From assembly GCA_019186945.1 (NCBI GenBank), contig JABAQJ010000002.1, positions 213,897 to 277,896 on the forward strand: a stretch of DNA of 64,000 bases. Reading direction: 5' to 3'. Both the position numbers and the translations under genes were made by a program. This DNA is from Gemmatimonadaceae bacterium (GTDB lineage: Bacteria; Gemmatimonadota; Gemmatimonadetes; Gemmatimonadales; Gemmatimonadaceae). The notes beneath the pieces are model-generated. The model searched no databases. It saw nothing but the letters and a program-made list of their open reading frames with translations, and was not told the DNA's origin. Positions 12,227 to 20,666 of the stretch are shown one piece after another; position 1 is the stretch's first letter; every line of letters begins with the position of its first letter.

Positions 12227-13282
12227 TCAGCCGTTTGTCGCGGTCGTTCTGTTCGCTGCTTCGCGTCGTACGGCTGGCGCAACTCTGGTGCCGAACAACT
12301 CTATCGAACGCATGACCGCGGCGTGCGGCAAGGTGCCCACGGTGAACTGCACGAGAAAGCGCTGGTTATTGAACAACGAATGCTCGTACAGGATCTTGTC
12401 GATCACTTGCTGAGGATCGCCCAGGATCATAGCGCCGTGCGGCGCACGTTCGGCATCGAACTGGCGCCGCGTCGGAGGCGACCAGCCACGCTCGCGTCCG
12501 ATCTTGCCCATCGTCTGGATGTACGCGGGGAACGCCATCTCGGCGGCCTCGTCGCTGGTGTCCGCGACCAGCCCGTGCGAGTTGATACTGACGGAGAGTC
12601 GCGCCGGATCGTGACCTGCTCGACGGCCCGCCTCGCGGTATAACTCGACCAGCGGTACGAACTGCGCCGGCGATCCGCCGATGATAGCGACCGCCAATGG
12701 CAGACCAAGGGTTCCGGCGCGGACGACCGACTGCGGCGTCCCGCCAACCGCGATCCATACGGGCAGCGGGTTCTGCACCGGCCGCGGATACACGGCGAGG
12801 TTGTCGATCGTCGCACGGTGCTTTCCCGACCATGACACGAACGTTCCTTCGCGGATCTTCAGCAGAAGGTCGAGCTTCTCCGCGAACAGATCGTCGTAAT
12901 CATTGAGGTCGTATCCAAAGAGCGGAAACGACTCGATGAACGAGCCGCGACCGGCCATGATCTCAGCGCGTCCATCGGAGAGCAGGTCGAGTGTCGCGAA
13001 ATCCTGAAACACGCGCACCGGGTCGTCGGAACTGAGGACGGTAACCGCGCTCGTGAGGCGGATGCGGTTGGTCCGCTCCGCAGCAGCCGCGAGGATCACG
13101 ACCGGCGCCGAGGCCGAGAAGTCAGGGCGATGATGTTCGCCTACGCCGAAGACATCGAGCCCAACCTGATCCGCGAGCTCGATTTCTTCGATGAGATCGC
13201 GCAACCGCTGCCGGGCAGTCACGACTTCGCCGGTGCGCGGGTCTGGTGTCGTTTCAGCGAAGGTGTAGATCCCGAGTTCCAT
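12227..13282 (-). CDS. LLM-class flavin-dependent oxidoreductase
   Basis: A 351-residue luciferase-like monooxygenase family protein, a TIM barrel using reduced FMN or F420. The start [15 protein letters not shown] is typical of the family. Further signatures are [16 protein letters not shown] (about residues 45-60), [22 protein letters not shown] (about 78-100), [34 protein letters not shown] and the C-terminal PQQVIDKIL. The substrate is unknown; members of this subgroup are often annotated only as putative alkanal monooxygenases. The start at 13282 is chosen over a 49-codon longer frame because it matches the family. It is divergent from the helicase gene, 123 bases away. Confidence 0.88.
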
Positions 13283-13405
13283 GGCACACAAAGGGTGGGG
13301 GCAGCGGAATATGCCAGCGGGCCATGCGCAGATGAAGCGAATCGCGCTCATCTCGCGGCGTGCCTGGATTTCATTACCAGCGCATCGCATGCACATTGCC
13401 AGGCA

Positions 13406-16318
13406 ATGCAACGCGGCGAAAAAAACCAACTCGTTCTGACCGAACGGCAGCGCGCCGCCGTCACTGCCCGGAAAGGTCCTGTGCTGGTTCTGGCGGGGCC
13501 CGGCTCAGGGAAGACGCTGTGCCTGATCGAGCGCATCCGCTATGCGATTTGCGAACTCGGAATCGATCCGGCGCGCATCTGCGCGTTCACGTTCACCAAC
13601 CGGGCCGCCGAGGAAATCACTCACCGGCTTGCCGAAGCGCTGCACGCGGAGGCCGGTCGCGTCAGGACGGGAACGATTCACGGGTTCTGCGCCGAGGTAC
13701 TCCGGGAGTTCCCCGGCGAGGCGGGCGTGCAGCGCGGCTTCGGAATCGCGGACGAGGACTATCAGCACGGCGTGCTGTCGCGACTGAAGGAGCCCGCACG
13801 GTGGCACGGCAGCATGCTGAAGAGCTTCGTGCGATTCCGCTTCCGCGACGTTCCCCTCCGGCCGCATCAGGAGCGAGTGTACCGCGAATATCTTGAGCAC
13901 TTGGGACGGAAGAACGTCGTCGATTTCGATCAGCTAGTGCTGGCGGCTGCCGATCTGATGACGAACTCCCCCGCGACCGCCGCCTCGCTTCGATCGCGCT
14001 GGGACTTTGTGCTGGTGGACGAGTTCCAGGATCTGAACCGGGCGCAGTACCAGGTGGTGAAGGGGTTAGCTGCAACGCACCGCAACGTCTTTTGTGTGGG
14101 CGACGATGAGCAAGCGATCTACTCCTGGACCGGAGCGGACACCCGCCAGTTCGTGATGTTCCAACAGGATTTCGATCCGGCATTTCGGGTCGAACTCGAC
14201 GAGAACCGCCGATCACCGCGATCCGTAATGGAGTACGCCCGCCGCTTGATCGCCCGGAACGTGCCGCTGTTCGAGAAAGCGCCAAGAGCCACCAGGGAGT
14301 CCAGCCACCCAGTGGTCGCACGCAGCTTCAACGACGATACGGATGAAAGCGACTGGATCGTGGAGGACATCCGCGCCGATCGAGAGGCGAGCGGGTGCAG
14401 TTGGGGCGACTACGGCATCCTGTATCGCAAACATGAAATCGGGGATCTGCTGGAGGCCCGGATGTTGACGGCTGGCCTGCCGTGTCGCCTGGCGCACGGA
14501 CGAGCTCTCTCCGAGGATCCGGTCGTGCGCCACGTGATCGCCGCACTCCGGGTCATCGCGTCGCCAACCGACGAAGTGTACCGCGGCGACTTCTTCAGGG
14601 TCGTGCTTCCCAAGGCCCTGGTGAAGACCGTGGAAACGCGGGCAGCGGACAGTGGAGCACCATTCCTGACCGAACTAAGGAAACACGCCCGCGCGCTGAG
14701 GAGCAATCACGAAGACGCCAGGAAGATCCGGCGCGGGTTCTCCGCGATGAAGAATCTTGGCGCCGTTGGCCGGCAGCATACGTCTCTCGTGGCGCTGGTC
14801 GAGGATCTCCTGTCGCAACGAGTCGGCGAGTATCGGACCGTCCTGGAACGCAACCACGAGGACATCAGCCCTGTCGCATCGCACGTGGCCGTTGTGAAGC
14901 TGGCGGAGCAGCTCCGACAGGCGCGCGACGGTTTTCGTCAGATCTGGCTTCCGCCGATGCGGGGTGCGGAAATCGCGCTCAAGCACCTGCTCCAGGAAGC
15001 AGGCGAGTACCGGGCCGACATCGCTCCGAGTCCGCCCGCCGGCGCCGTGATCATCGACGCTGACATGGGGGGCGAACTCGGACTGCCGCTCGCGATGTTC
15101 AAGGCTTTGCAGCTCCTTGCCACGGAATCCTTCATCGACGTCTTCCGCGATTTCACGGTAGTCGATCTGGAGACCACCGGAAAGGACGCGGCGACGGCAC
15201 AGATCGTGGAAGTCGCCGCGGTACGCGTACGCGACGGCATTCAGGTCGACTCGTTCACGAGCCTCGTGAAGCCTCGTGTCCCGATCACGCCGGGAGCGAC
15301 CCAGACGCATGGGATCGCCGAGTGGGACGTCGCCAAATCGCCGTACTTCGAGGAGATCTGGCCGGAACTCGATGCCTTTCTTGGCACGGACGTCCTGGTG
15401 GCTCACAACGGATACCAGTTCGATTTCCCGATCCTGCGGCGCATGAGCGAACCGTTCTCGGGCGGCAGGACACTGGTCACCTACGATACCCTTCCGCTGG
15501 CGCGTGAACTCACGCCGGGAAGCCGGAAGCTTAGCGACCTCGCGCACGCGCACGGGATCGACCCCGGCGAGTCGCACCGCGCGCTCGACGACTGCCGCAC
15601 GCTTGCGCAGGTCTTTCTCAGACTCAATGCGGAGAAGATCGAGCGCGCGCGCAAGACGGCACTCTCCAATCTCCTCGACCACCTGGCCATCGCGATGTGG
15701 CTCGCCGACGTGCCTGGCGCGTCAGGCGAGCCGACTGCCTTCAGGGGCTGGATCAGAACGCAGCCATTCCTTGTCTTCAGCGAAGCGCTGACACGTTACC
15801 GCGAGACGAGGGAGAGCGCCGGAGTGACGACGGCTCCCACGGTAAGCGGCGTGATCGACGCGTTAGGCGGCACGGAGGCAATGGAGCGCACACGCGCCCG
15901 CCGCACGGCGGCTCAACGGTATCCGGCAGCGATGGCGCGACTCCGCCGCCTTATCGAGTCCACGCCCGACGGCACCCTCGACTCCCGGATCGGCGCCTTC
16001 CTGGAACGCGTGGTTCTGTCCAGGTGGGATGGCACCGACGCGGACGCCAACCGTGTGAACCTCCTTACGCTCCACGCCACCAAGGGCCTTCAATTCTCGC
16101 GCGTCTACATCGTGGGAGCGGAAGACGCGGAACTGCCCGGCCTGCCGGGCGCCCGGCCCATTCCCGAAGCCGAAATGGAGGAAGCGCGTCGCCTGTTGTA
16201 CGTGGGCATGACGCGCACTGTCGACCGGTTGGTCCTGACCAGAGTCGCACGAAGGCGCGACCGGGAAACCGGCGGCCATCGCTTTCTCGACGAGATGCAG
16301 CTGGCGCCGGACACGTAA
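13406..16318 (+). CDS. UvrD/PcrA-type SF1 helicase with an inserted DEDDh exonuclease domain
   Basis: A 970-residue ATP-dependent 3'-5' helicase. Walker A AGPGSGKT is at about residue 30, [11 protein letters not shown] (motif Ia) at about 65, the DEFQDLN box (motif II) at about 205, [14 protein letters not shown] (motif III) at about 232, and motifs V and VI ([32 protein letters not shown]) at about 885 and 930. Between motifs IV and V, about residues 582-745, sits a DnaQ-type proofreading exonuclease: [19 protein letters not shown] and ESHRALDDC provide the D-E-D-D-h residues. Both modules look complete. The start at 13406 is chosen because upstream in-frame sequence overlaps the divergent LLM gene. 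Helicase-coupled DNA degradation or end processing is inferred; it neighbours Ku and LigD. Confidence 0.88.
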
Positions 16319-16360
16319 GTCCCGAACCGCACTCGCTTCGCGAAGGAGCCCTGCCGTTCC

Positions 16361-17089
16361 TTACGGTTCTGCGCGCGCGCAGAACCGCCTCACCGCCGTT
16401 GGGCCCGACATCCCGCCTCCGCGCGACACCGCCTCCTCCGCTTCGTCATGCTTGAAGTAGACGTAGGCGTCACGCCATCCCTGCGCGGCGATCGTCTCGA
16501 CCCAGCGCTTCAGGTCCGCGTCCGAGTAGTCGAGTCGATGCAGGCGCAGGTAGCCCCACGCGGCGGTGCGCGCTACCGGACTCGCGAAATCCTCCTGATC
16601 GATCGCGCACAGGGCGACGTCGTGCGCACGCAGCAGGGCGAACGTCTCCCCGTCGAACCAGCTCGCGTCCCGGAACTCGAAGACGAACCGCCGATCCTTC
16701 GGCAGGTAATCCAGGAAACTCGCCAGACGGTCAGCGTCCTTTCTCAAATTGGCAGGGCACTGGAACAGGATGGGTCCCAGCTTCGGGCCCAGAACCGACG
16801 TGCTCTGGAGGAGGAAATCCAGCGCACCTTTCGACTCCGGCTTGAGCCGTCCGAAGTGCGTAATCCTCTGGCTTGCCTTTATGGCGAATACGAAACCCTC
16901 AGGCACCTGCGCTGCCCAGCCCGCCAGTACATGCTCCTTCGGCAGCCGGTAGAAGGTGTTGTTGATCTCGACCGTCGGGAACTGCGACGCGTAATAGCGG
17001 AGTTGTCCCTCGTCAGGCAGGTCGACAGGGTAGAAGGCGCCACGCCATTCCTTGAACGCGAAGCCGCTGGTCCCCGCCAGCACTATCAC
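16361..17089 (-). CDS. DUF72 (YecE-like) TIM-barrel protein, coupled to Ku
   Basis: A 242-residue DUF72 protein of about the usual length. Family marks are LAGTSGFAFKEWRGAFYP at the N-terminus, FPTVEINNTFYRLP (about residues 37-50), FVFAIKASQRITH, LGPILFQCPANLRKD, RRFVFEFRDASWF and the C-terminal AYVYFKHDEAEEA. DUF72 folds as a TIM barrel; no biochemical activity is firmly established. Its ATG overlaps the Ku stop by 4 bp (17086-17089), so it is co-translated with Ku. This suggests a role alongside NHEJ, as inference. The last codons overlap a perfect 24-bp palindrome (16364-16387). Confidence 0.87.
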   Translation of the reverse strand: MIVLAGTSGFAFKEWRGAFYPVDLPDEGQLRYYASQFPTVEINNTFYRLPKEHVLAGWAAQVPEGFVFAIKASQRITHFGRLKPESKGALDFLLQSTSVLGPKLGPILFQCPANLRKDADRLASFLDYLPKDRRFVFEFRDASWFDGETFALLRAHDVALCAIDQEDFASPVARTAAWGYLRLHRLDYSDADLKRWVETIAAQGWRDAYVYFKHDEAEEAVSRGGGMSGPTAVRRFCARAEP

Positions 17090-17910
17090 GAGGCCTTCCG
17101 CTCGTCGCTGGCAGCGGCGCCGTCTCCGGCCGCCGTCGCCGTCCGGGCAAGAGACGCCTTCAGCGCCTCCATCAGGTCGATGATCCTGCCGCCGCCGTCG
17201 GTGGACTGCTCGGCCGTGATCTCCTGCCCGTCGACTTTCTTCTGGATGGCGTCCAGTACGCGCTCGCGCACCACATCCCTGTACTTGGCAGGATCGAAAG
17301 TATCGGTCGCGGTCTGTTCGATGAGTTGCCTGGCAAGCGTCAACTCGTTAGGTTTCACCTCGCCCTCGCCAAGCGGAACCTCGGACGTCGGACGCATCTC
17401 GTCGGCGTAGTGCAGTTGCTCCATCACCAGAACGCCATCCCGCGGGCGCAGCAGAACGAGATGTTGCTGCCCCCGCGCGGCATACTGGCCGAGCGCGGCC
17501 CGTCCCGTCTCCTTCAGCGCCTCCGCCAGCAGTCGATACGCGCGGTCGCCACCCTTGTCCGGCCCGAGGTAGTACACTCGCTCCAGATACTCGCGGTCGA
17601 CCTTCGCCAGCGGAACGAACTCGGCAATGTCGATCGTGCCAGTGGCCTTCTCCTCCAACGCCTTGATTTCGTCGGGCGAGAACATCACGTAGCGGTCCTT
17701 GGCGAACTCGTAGCCCTTCGCCATGTCCTCACGCCCGACGATCTCGCCATCCTTCGGGCAGGTGTACTGCTGCTTCAGTCGCGTGCCGCAACTCTTATGC
17801 AGCATGTTGAACGACACACTGGCCTTCGACTCTGCGGTCGAGTAGATGTTGACGGGGACCGAGACCAGGCCAAAGGAGATCGTAGCGGTGCCGATCGAGC
17901 GAGCGGGCAT
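17086..17910 (-). CDS. ku: Ku-family NHEJ DNA-end-binding protein
   Basis: A 274-residue bacterial Ku. The homodimeric ring threads onto double-strand DNA ends and recruits ligase D. The start ARSIGTATISFGLVSVPVNIYSTAE is nearly diagnostic. It is followed by a CGTRLKQQYTCPKDG segment (residues ~41-55, two Cys), ITIDIAEF-like strand TGTIDIAEFVPLAKVD, YYLGPDKGGDRAYRLL, and ELTLARQLIEQ near residue 200. The C-terminal tail from about residue 245 is Ala/Lys-rich and low in complexity, as in other bacterial Ku proteins, where it contacts LigD. It is divergent from ligD with a 107-base spacer and followed by the overlapping DUF72 gene. Confidence 0.96.
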   Translation of the reverse strand: MPARSIGTATISFGLVSVPVNIYSTAESKASVSFNMLHKSCGTRLKQQYTCPKDGEIVGREDMAKGYEFAKDRYVMFSPDEIKALEEKATGTIDIAEFVPLAKVDREYLERVYYLGPDKGGDRAYRLLAEALKETGRAALGQYAARGQQHLVLLRPRDGVLVMEQLHYADEMRPTSEVPLGEGEVKPNELTLARQLIEQTATDTFDPAKYRDVVRERVLDAIQKKVDGQEITAEQSTDGGGRIIDLMEALKASLARTATAAGDGAAASDERKAS

Positions 17911-18017
17911 AATGAGGATCTGGCGGAAGAAGGACGCACGGCCGAGTCACTGGCCCACGTGGACGCTTCGCGTTGCGCGTGCGACCGAGCCGTGAGTTAG
18001 GCTCGCCGGATCGCCAG

Positions 18018-20666
18018 ATGGACGCAAGGGGCACAGACACCGGACCAGGCAGATCGCACGCGACCGACCCCGTCGGTCCCGGGTCGGCCGGCGACAGCCT
18101 CGCCGCCTATCGGGCGAAGCGCTCGGCCGACCGTTCGCCGGAACCTGTCGGCACCGTCCATTCGACGACAGGCCAACTGTTCGTCGTGCACAAGCATGCG
18201 GCCCGGCAGCTGCACTTCGACCTGCGTCTGGAGATGGACGGCGTCCTGCGATCATGGGCTGTCCCGCGCGGTCCATCGCTCGACCAGCACGACAAGCGCC
18301 TCGCCGTCCGCGTCGAGGATCACCCGCTGGAGTACGGCGACTTCGAGGGAATCATCCCCGAGGGCAACTACGGCGCCGGCGCCGTCATCGTCTGGGACCG
18401 CGGCGAATGGGTTCCCCTGGAAGACTGGCGAACCGGACTCGAGAAGGGGAAGCTCCTGTTTGAACTGAAGGGCTACAAACTCCGTGGCAAGTGGACCCTG
18501 GTGAAGATCAAGAAAAGCGAGAAGGACTGGCTGCTGATCAAGGAACGGGACGCCTGGATGACATCGCCTGGCGACCGGTTTCCGCAGGAATCCGTCCTGT
18601 CGGGGCTGACGGTCGAGGAAGTGAAAGCCGGGTACTCGCCCGCGAGGCGCATTCGCACCGCCCTCGAACAGATGGGTGCACCCCGCACTCCGGTCTCACC
18701 CCGAAACGTCGGACTGATGCTCGCCGAGTCGCGCCAGCAGGCATTCTCGGACGCTGACTGGCTGTTCGAGTTGAAGCTCGACGGTTACCGTCTGCTGGCG
18801 TCGAAGTCACCTCACGAAGTCCTGCTGCTGAGCCGGAACGGCAACGATTACACGGAAGTCTTTCCCGAAGTCGCACGGGCCGTCGCCGCCATTCCCATCG
18901 ATCGCTGTGTGATCGACGGCGAGGCGGTTGTGCTGGATGCCCATGGGAAGCCCAGTTTCTCCCGACTGCAGCAGCGCGGTCGCCTCACCAATGCGATCGA
19001 CATTGCGCACTCGGCGGTGGAACTGCCGGTAACCTATTTCGCGTTCGATCTACTCGGCTTCGAGGACTTCGACCTGCGCTCGCTTCCGCTGGTCACGCGC
19101 AAGAAATTCCTGGCCGAGGTGCTTCCCGCACTCGGCCCAGTGCGCTATCTCGATCACATCGCCGAGCGGGGAGAAGCGTTCCTGGACGAGGTCACCACCC
19201 TTGGCCTGGAAGGTATCATCGCCAAGAAAGCGGATGCCTCCTACCGCGCCGGACGTTCGGCGTTGTGGCTCAAGATCAAGACGGACAGGACCGGTGACTT
19301 CGTGATCGCTGGTTTCACCGAACCCAAGGGAAGCCGCTCGGGCTTCGGTGCGTTGCAGTTGGCGGACTATGTCGGTGGGAAGCTGGTGTATGCGGGCCGC
19401 GCAGGCACCGGGTTCAACGATCGACAGCTGACGGACATCCGCGAGGCACTCGGCGCTCACGTGCGAACCGAACCGGCGTGCCTTGGACCCGTGGCATCGC
19501 CCGGCACCGAGCCACTGCCTGCAGACGCGATCCCCGAGACGCGGACGACGACGTGGGTGGAGCCGCGCCTTGTCTGCGAAGTCCGGTTCCGCGAGTGGAC
19601 ACCCGACGGCCTGCTTCGCCATCCCGCTTTCCTGAGGATGCGTCCGGACAAGGATCCCCACCAGTGCGACCGGCAGAAATGGAACACCGATCGCGAGGCA
19701 CCGGATACCGCCAACGTTGTCCCTGACGAGACACCTGACGCTCAGCCGCCCGAACCGCCTGAGAGAGCCGTTGAGAAGACCGTGACACTGTCGAACCTTC
19801 GCAAGGTCTTCTGGCCCGTCGAGGGATACACGAAAGGCGACTTGATCGAGTACTACCGCACCATCGCGCCATGGCTGCTCCCATATCTGGTCAACCGCCC
19901 CGTAGTACTGACGCGGTTTCCCGACGGGATCGAAGGCAAGTCTTTCTACCAGAAGGATGCACCGGCATTCGCGCCGGAGTGGATACGCACTACCCCCATC
20001 TGGAGCAACGATACCCAGCGGAACATCCGATATTTCGTGTGCGATAACGTGGAGTCGCTCACTTATATCGCCAACATGGGCACCATCCCGCTCCATATCT
20101 GGGCAAGTCGCGTGGGGAGCCTGGAGCTGCCGGACTGGTGTGTCATCGATCTCGATCCCAAGGAAGCGCCTTTCTCGGACGTTGTCCGGTGCGCGACTGT
20201 GCTTCACTGGATTTGCGAAGACGTCGGGCTACCGAACTATGTGAAGACGACGGGCAAGACTGGACTCCATGTACTGATTCCGTTGGCCAGACAATGCACC
20301 TACGAGCAATCGCGGACGTTCGGCGAGTTGCTCGCGCGTCTCGTGCTCAGGGAACTGCCGACTATCGCCACCATCACGCGGCACGTGACCAGGCGGGGCG
20401 ACAAGGTCTATCTCGACTATCTCCAGAACCGCCACGGGCAACTCATTGTCGCGCCGTTCAGCGTACGGCCGCTTCCGGGTGCCACCGTGTCCATGCCCCT
20501 GCTCTGGAGTGAAGTGAACGACGCGCTGGATCCTCGCGCCTTTACGATCGCGACTGCACGTGCGCGCATGGACTTGCTTGGCCACGACCCGGTACGCCCC
20601 GTCCTGGACGACAAACCGGACTTCGCGCTGATGCTCGAGCGAATCGCGGCGCTGTCCCGAACGTAG
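18018..20666 (+). CDS. ligD: ATP-dependent DNA ligase D (PE-LIG-POL)
   Basis: An 882-residue multifunctional NHEJ enzyme with all three modules. The phosphoesterase domain (about residues 30-150) has FVVHKHAARQLHFDLRLE and VEDHPLEYGDFEG. The ATP-dependent ligase (about 210-500) has the nucleotidyl-accepting lysine K253 in ELKLDGYR, plus DGEAVV and the GLEGIIAKK motif. The AEP-type polymerase/primase (about 590-875) has the metal-binding D711-x-D713 in VIDLDPKE. The order PE-LIG-POL differs from the mycobacterial POL-PE-LIG. The first ATG, at 18018, is used; an in-frame TTG at 17973 is less likely. It is divergent from ku, so both may be fired from one 107-base region. Confidence 0.95.
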   Translation: MDARGTDTGPGRSHATDPVGPGSAGDSLAAYRAKRSADRSPEPVGTVHSTTGQLFVVHKHAARQLHFDLRLEMDGVLRSWAVPRGPSLDQHDKRLAVRVEDHPLEYGDFEGIIPEGNYGAGAVIVWDRGEWVPLEDWRTGLEKGKLLFELKGYKLRGKWTLVKIKKSEKDWLLIKERDAWMTSPGDRFPQESVLSGLTVEEVKAGYSPARRIRTALEQMGAPRTPVSPRNVGLMLAESRQQAFSDADWLFELKLDGYRLLASKSPHEVLLLSRNGNDYTEVFPEVARAVAAIPIDRCVIDGEAVVLDAHGKPSFSRLQQRGRLTNAIDIAHSAVELPVTYFAFDLLGFEDFDLRSLPLVTRKKFLAEVLPALGPVRYLDHIAERGEAFLDEVTTLGLEGIIAKKADASYRAGRSALWLKIKTDRTGDFVIAGFTEPKGSRSGFGALQLADYVGGKLVYAGRAGTGFNDRQLTDIREALGAHVRTEPACLGPVASPGTEPLPADAIPETRTTTWVEPRLVCEVRFREWTPDGLLRHPAFLRMRPDKDPHQCDRQKWNTDREAPDTANVVPDETPDAQPPEPPERAVEKTVTLSNLRKVFWPVEGYTKGDLIEYYRTIAPWLLPYLVNRPVVLTRFPDGIEGKSFYQKDAPAFAPEWIRTTPIWSNDTQRNIRYFVCDNVESLTYIANMGTIPLHIWASRVGSLELPDWCVIDLDPKEAPFSDVVRCATVLHWICEDVGLPNYVKTTGKTGLHVLIPLARQCTYEQSRTFGELLARLVLRELPTIATITRHVTRRGDKVYLDYLQNRHGQLIVAPFSVRPLPGATVSMPLLWSEVNDALDPRAFTIATARARMDLLGHDPVRPVLDDKPDFALMLERIAALSRT

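Follow-up and report, generated by a model that had tools for sequence, protein, structure and literature searches.

Within a 64,000-nucleotide stretch of DNA from a Gemmatimonadaceae bacterium (here called the window; positions 213897-277896 of its contig, in a genome of 3.95 Mb in 20 contigs), a gene of the DUF72 family begins inside the stop codon of ku, beside a divergently transcribed ligD. Our analysis of this locus and its relatives points to one branch of the family, termed type N, as a helper of DNA end joining in bacteria that had not been listed before, and we consider it probable that the DUF72 protein serves bacterial non-homologous end joining (NHEJ) as an accessory factor. Bacterial end joining is usually described in terms of Ku and LigD. 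The accessible part of a 2006 review (PMC1378119) presents bacterial NHEJ as a matter of two factors only, and in the available sections of a later study the neighborhoods of ku and ligD are analyzed only relative to each other, without DUF72 (PMC7719229). No paper linking DUF72 to Ku or LigD was among the matches listed for the open-licence literature. DUF72 itself is a widespread family whose structures have been solved since 2004 and to which no function has been assigned.

The DUF72 gene of the window (16361-17089, minus strand; 242 amino acids) is a short form and belongs to the type-N branch, scoring 204.9 bits against PF01904 (cut-off 25.3) and 351 bits against the type-N profile A1. 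The adjoining ku (17086-17910, minus strand; 274 amino acids) matches PF02735 and the TIGR02772 equivalog (275.1 bits, cut-off 150), and ligD (18018-20666, plus strand; 882 amino acids), with an ATG start at 18018 and an alternative in-frame TTG at 17973, reaches 523.9 bits against TIGR02776 (cut-off 373.2) and carries in a single protein its three domains in the order 3'-phosphoesterase, ligase, primase-polymerase (PF13298, PF01068, PF04679, PF21686). The window thus has the Ku and three-domain LigD of two-component bacterial NHEJ, both above curated cut-offs; unlike that system, it has a third gene that translationally overlaps ku. A preliminary description of this DNA had recognized the 4-bp overlap of the ku stop codon with the start of DUF72 (17086-17089, minus strand) and the 107 bases across which ligD diverges (17911-18017, probably a shared promoter region), but it read the overlap as ATGA; the letters are in fact GTGA, hence the start codon of DUF72 is GTG, and the two genes are presumably translationally coupled. 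No sigma-70-like promoter was found at 16200-18150, the ku/ligD gap included, and the only terminator-like site, which lies inside the DUF72 gene on its minus strand, is of a kind that occurs as often in shuffled sequence. The same genome encodes a second, distant DUF72 (39% identity to the window copy over the best piece), and the nearest named relatives of the window protein belong to Gemmatimonadota, mostly metagenome-assembled.

Co-occurrence of Type-N DUF72 with Ku

Type N was defined by alignment A1 of 45 relatives. In 249 Gemmatimonadota genomes the A1 scores are bimodal (at least 290 bits, or at most 231), and on this division 109 genomes have both Ku and type N, 42 have Ku only, 9 have type N only and 89 have neither (odds ratio 25.7, p = 2.5e-24); put otherwise, Ku occurs in 109 of 118 type-N genomes versus 42 of the 131 others. 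The same four classes hold 22, 18, 0 and 47 genomes of the window's own family. When genera are counted in place of genomes (106 of 112 genera, covering 237 of the 249 genomes), the classes become 56, 23, 3 and 24 (odds ratio 19.5, p = 5e-8), and comparisons within genera, few of which are informative, go in the same direction. Among 118 Acidobacteriota genomes, the seed genome G253 having been left out of 119, the corresponding numbers are 23, 11, 4 and 80 (odds ratio 41.8, p = 1.8e-12), Ku being present in 23 of 27 type-N genomes versus 11 of 91 others; once two split genes and a second group with in-between scores (about 210-254 bits) are added, they are 32, 2, 11 and 73. As far as counts of genera and genomes can show it, a co-occurrence with Ku beyond shared ancestry is therefore seen at the genus level and in a second phylum.

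It is the branch and not the family that behaves in this manner. Other DUF72 genes show no positive link to Ku (odds ratio 1.4, p = 0.27, in Gemmatimonadota; 0.4 in Acidobacteriota), and because they do not track it, DUF72 in general was rejected as a partner of Ku. DUF72 is present in 9 of 14 control genomes, E. coli being among those with DUF72 and no Ku match. The idea of the preliminary description that DUF72 is a partner of Ku in end repair must consequently be narrowed: its genomic core is supported, by recurrent linkage of DUF72 genes in five of six phyla and by co-occurrence of type N in two, but it stands for one branch and does not extend to DUF72 at large.

That E. coli and other genomes carry DUF72 but gave no Ku match could also mean that the gene belongs to some other repair pathway, with abasic or UV lesions as possible targets, and only shares with Ku a habitat, a regulon or a genome style. 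In line with this, the accessible part of PMC11791011 reports some degree of enrichment of DUF72 around polB2 in both archaea and bacteria; these copies likewise stand beside DNA-damage genes, although their partner is PolB2/iRadA and not Ku/LigD. The more distant DUF72 genes of rhizobial and related plasmids (34-43% identity) have no annotated Ku or LigD in five regions, for which the gene table is incomplete, and among the rhizobial copies one (L235) has error-prone polymerase genes nearby and another (L237) an SOS-associated peptidase gene. Three observations speak against this explanation: it is type N, and not DUF72 generally, that follows Ku; the start-stop overlap is with ku itself; and genome size does not account for the link in Acidobacteriota, where it persists both in a logistic fit (110 of the 118 genomes) and in a size-stratified permutation (25 joint genomes observed, counting the two split genes, against a permuted mean of 13.7 and a maximum of 22). 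We thus hold a general role in DNA damage to be unlikely.

Physical Linkage and the ku-DUF72 Junction

When named genome contigs were searched with the window's DUF72 protein as query, 80 loci were returned. In the closest of these, from Gemmatimonadota, DUF72 mostly lies directly after ku; in several others, from Verrucomicrobia, Chloroflexi, Betaproteobacteria, Gammaproteobacteria, Bacteroidia, Acidobacteria and Eisenbacteria, ku or ligD lies a few kilobases away in differing orders. Such a sample is biased toward the relatives of a Ku-linked gene, and linkage was therefore tested starting from Ku. Ku was sought in evenly drawn genomes of five other phyla (150, 115, 121, 118 and 119 genomes, of which 25, 11, 35, 15 and 35, respectively, have it); seven Ku-positive genomes that had been found via DUF72 (G249, G250, G251, G252, G253, G255 and G269) were dropped, which reduced the 121 to 114, and every DUF72 gene was sought in those that remained. 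Of the 114, 8 have a DUF72 gene no more than 5 kb from Ku, versus 0.73 expected (Poisson p = 1e-6), and 9 have one within 10 kb, versus 1.36 expected. By phylum, the 5-kb cases number 1 of 24 in Pseudomonadota, 1 of 10 in Verrucomicrobiota, 0 of 13 in Bacteroidota, 4 of 33 in Chloroflexota and 2 of 34 in Acidobacteriota. Linkage is thus real but a minority state outside Gemmatimonadota. The preliminary description had suggested neighborhood statistics across phyla as a check, and by these the adjacency is not limited to one lineage, since it recurs in all of the six phyla sampled except Bacteroidota.

For Gemmatimonadota, 80 regions around Ku were fetched. DUF72 is found within 5 kb in 13 of 40 from the window's own family, 13 of 20 from the same order and 1 of 20 from the same class. 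When a distance of 6 kb is allowed, it is present at 28 of 48 divergent ku/ligD loci versus none of 29 co-directional ones, and at none of three further Ku regions without a nearby ligase, so that all linked cases in this phylum are divergent loci. Within the taxonomic order of the window genome, DUF72 stands downstream of ku on either strand, or beyond ligD. This varied gene order looks more like selection for a neighborhood than like a frozen arrangement. In two Acidobacteriota loci (L201 and L202), phosphoesterase, ligase and polymerase, in that order, are followed by ku on one strand, with DUF72 on the opposite strand.

Where DUF72 follows ku on the same strand, the junction itself is largely uniform. 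A 4-bp NTGA overlap occurs in 32 of 39 distinct junctions (26 GTGA, 5 ATGA and 1 TTGA) and a 1-bp overlap in 2 more; the overlap in the window is no local accident. Natural fusions of DUF72 to Ku or LigD were absent from the open reading frames (ORFs) of 212 loci. In the lineage of the window, Ku and DUF72 are probably carried on one transcript and LigD on another from the opposite strand, and since the DUF72 start lies within the ku stop, we propose that the two proteins would be produced together. Chance adjacency of DUF72 and Ku is ruled out by the linkage, co-occurrence and junction counts.

A more serious objection is that DUF72 may have been caught up in a mobile ku/ligD cassette and has no part in end joining. 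The near-constant layout in Gemmatimonadaceae is what such a passenger would show, and there is some indication that the cassette may move: in a search of a plasmid collection, the sole DUF72 match above 60% identity (NZ_CP007130.1:529643-530326) comes from Gemmatirosa kalamazoonensis, where it lies on a 1.04-Mb replicon listed as a plasmid, and it putatively corresponds to the ku-DUF72-ligD region that we recorded at a near-equal position on a contig of equal length (L126, on G080:C4). A passenger, however, would not be expected to differ in its order between lineages as DUF72 does, nor to track Ku from a distance. A listed Ku lies no more than 10 kb away from at least 52 of the 119 type-N genes of Gemmatimonadota, yet Ku is present in 109 of the 118 type-N genomes, and the link is thus not just a physical one; type N appears to be kept by Ku-positive genomes and mostly to be missing from Ku-negative ones, whether or not the genes are neighbors.

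The phylogeny of DUF72 bears on the same question. A quick tree without bootstrap, which does not tell gain from loss, was made from 104 of 148 sequences after removal of near copies. Type N and its nearest kin, including the linked Chloroflexota genes L199 and L200, form a clade of 81 rows (98% support in the Shimodaira-Hasegawa-like approximate likelihood ratio test), and four Ku-linked genes (L193, L195, L197 and L198) fall outside it amid unlinked DUF72. The label "linked to Ku" changes at least 12 times on the starred branches of the tree; the 22 changes observed are fewer than in any of 500 label shuffles (mean 34.8). Ku-linked DUF72 genes consequently come from several subfamilies, which again argues against passive carriage, and we regard the passenger explanation as quite unlikely.

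Predicted Structure and Pocket Residues

The AlphaFold2 model of the window protein (predicted local distance difference test 93.2, predicted template modeling score 0.91) adopts the TIM-barrel fold that the preliminary description had attributed to DUF72. Its closest matches are the family members TM1631 of Thermotoga maritima (1VPQ; Z 25.6 over 229 residues, root-mean-square deviation 2.3) and EF0366 (1ZTV, Z 24.0; 1VPY, Z 23.8), with which it shares both family and fold. Beyond the family come sugar 3-epimerases (Z 14.9), SacUVDE (13.7) and endonuclease IV (1QUM, 12.4). These last two are TIM barrels of the same broad fold group as the DUF72 model, which, unlike them, has no sequence match to any Pfam family other than PF01904 at E 0.001, neither endonuclease IV nor UVDE nor a sugar isomerase; the sugar epimerases fit it as well or better. 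UVDE and endonuclease IV are both in the VIA list, but neither appears in the set of ten Foldseek matches at E of at most 0.001; L-rhamnose isomerase was a Foldseek match.

Type N conserves seven residues (E41, N43, K71, Q110, E138, R140 and R182), which are largely shared by 24 other DUF72 sequences and are also kept relative to TM1631. Five of these (N43, K71, Q110, R140 and R182) align with N44, K72, Q114, R145 and R191 of TM1631, which the consulted portion of Konc et al. (PMC3828134) proposes, by modeling only, to hold DNA phosphate. A magnesium-dependent cut has been suggested for TM1631 from calculation only, and the 1VPQ crystal contains no metal in the predicted site, according to the accessible part of PMC4939058. 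Type N, the branch that tracks Ku, differs from TM1631 and EF0366 in its K213-H214 pair, which replaces the N-N usual in other DUF72 and is present in 98-99% of 161 sequences of the branch, and in its invariant R48 and H78.

The fold alone does not choose between a nuclease and a sugar enzyme, inasmuch as the sugar 3-epimerases outscore both UVDE and endonuclease IV. A sugar or nucleotide-sugar enzyme with a xylose-isomerase-like barrel, making or clearing some small molecule, would explain why sugar 3-epimerases and isomerases (Z 14.9 and below) are the best structural matches outside the family. It would leave the link to Ku without a reason, and neither the lack of a Pfam sugar-isomerase match at the threshold given above nor a conserved pocket rich in K, R and H is what one would expect of it; we judge it highly improbable.

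A Possible Role in End Processing

From the genomic evidence we infer that type-N DUF72 works with Ku at breaks, where its target is probably the DNA ends. An end-processing function is the most economical reading of what it does there and not a result. In this scheme the predicted phosphate pocket (E41, N43, K71, Q110, E138, R140, R182, K213 and H214), situated where a TIM barrel like that of endonuclease IV opens, would hold the DNA backbone, and DUF72 would trim or cleave damaged termini before LigD fills and seals them. We offer this enzymatic activity as a tentative proposal, and slightly more hesitantly still its wider form, in which type N might rank with Ku and LigD as a third core component of the end-joining machinery of many soil phyla. 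It would then be an enzyme dedicated to end cleaning, with a fold of the endonuclease-IV/UVDE group, and would clear Ku-held termini by means of its phosphate pocket and K-H pair.

Several points weigh against these views. The type-N thresholds were chosen from the score gap after the search, and co-occurrence can reflect a shared lifestyle. Type N is missing from 18 of the 40 Ku-positive genomes of the window's own family and, conversely, is found without a Ku match in nine Gemmatimonadota and four Acidobacteriota genomes; in one of the nine (G015), LigD adjoins DUF72 at a contig end, so that the lack of Ku may be no more than a gap in the assembly. Outside Gemmatimonadota, DUF72 is absent from the 5 kb on either side of Ku in 106 of the 114 Ku-positive genomes, all 13 Bacteroidota included. 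Regarding the enzymology, the better scores of the sugar 3-epimerases relative to UVDE count here as well, the endonuclease-IV-like role of TM1631 is itself modeled only, and the DUF72 metal site remains putative.

The Helicase-Exonuclease and Other Neighbors

On the far side of DUF72 lies a gene for a UvrD-type helicase (13130-16318, plus strand; 1062 amino acids; PF00580, PF00929, PF13361) that is interrupted, ahead of its C-terminal helicase part, by a DEDDh exonuclease domain (residues 677-829). This ORF is convergent to DUF72, from which 42 bp separate it. Near Ku, such a helicase-exonuclease is found in 9 of 33 regions with a type-N DUF72 versus 1 of 67 without; within 6 kb of DUF72, it is found at 14 of 56 linked versus 1 of 64 unlinked representative loci. 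It is a convergent, lineage-limited neighbor, confined to part of Gemmatimonadota, and no operon partner. The single "repair island" at 13.4-20.7 kb of the preliminary description hence survives as a statement of adjacency, but not as one operon, nor as a general unit. The helicase also matches GajB-like helicase and DEDDh models; a defense reading was rejected because generic UvrD and exonuclease domains would give these matches, and PADLOC returned no match for DUF72, Ku or LigD.

Two other genes, neither of which is in the window, recur within 6 kb of DUF72 at the same representative loci. An alpha/beta hydrolase (PF20408) is present at 22 of the 56 linked versus 6 of the 64 unlinked loci, sometimes only tens of bases from a type-N DUF72 (for example L115:7227-8009, L065:7051-8001, L102:8671-9483 and L251:7088-7834). 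A protein with a MerR-like helix-turn-helix and tetratricopeptide repeats is present at 21 linked loci versus 1 unlinked locus, immediately adjoins ku at 17 linked loci from several phyla (L066:5032-5937, L084:9754-10590, L104:8690-9508 and others), and is possibly a regulator of the ku locus. In three Gemmatimonadota loci, EVE-domain proteins are encoded 54-94 bp from DUF72 (L160:5023-5430, L171:4971-5411 and L257:8390-9574).

Implications

For a family as widespread as DUF72, the tie of one of its branches to Ku supplies a pathway. If type N does prove to be an end-cleaning third component, this would be the first pathway assignment for a DUF72 branch, and NHEJ in these bacterial phyla would be a three-part system. 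More broadly, bacterial end joining may have further conserved helpers that have stayed hidden owing to their absence from the usual model organisms.

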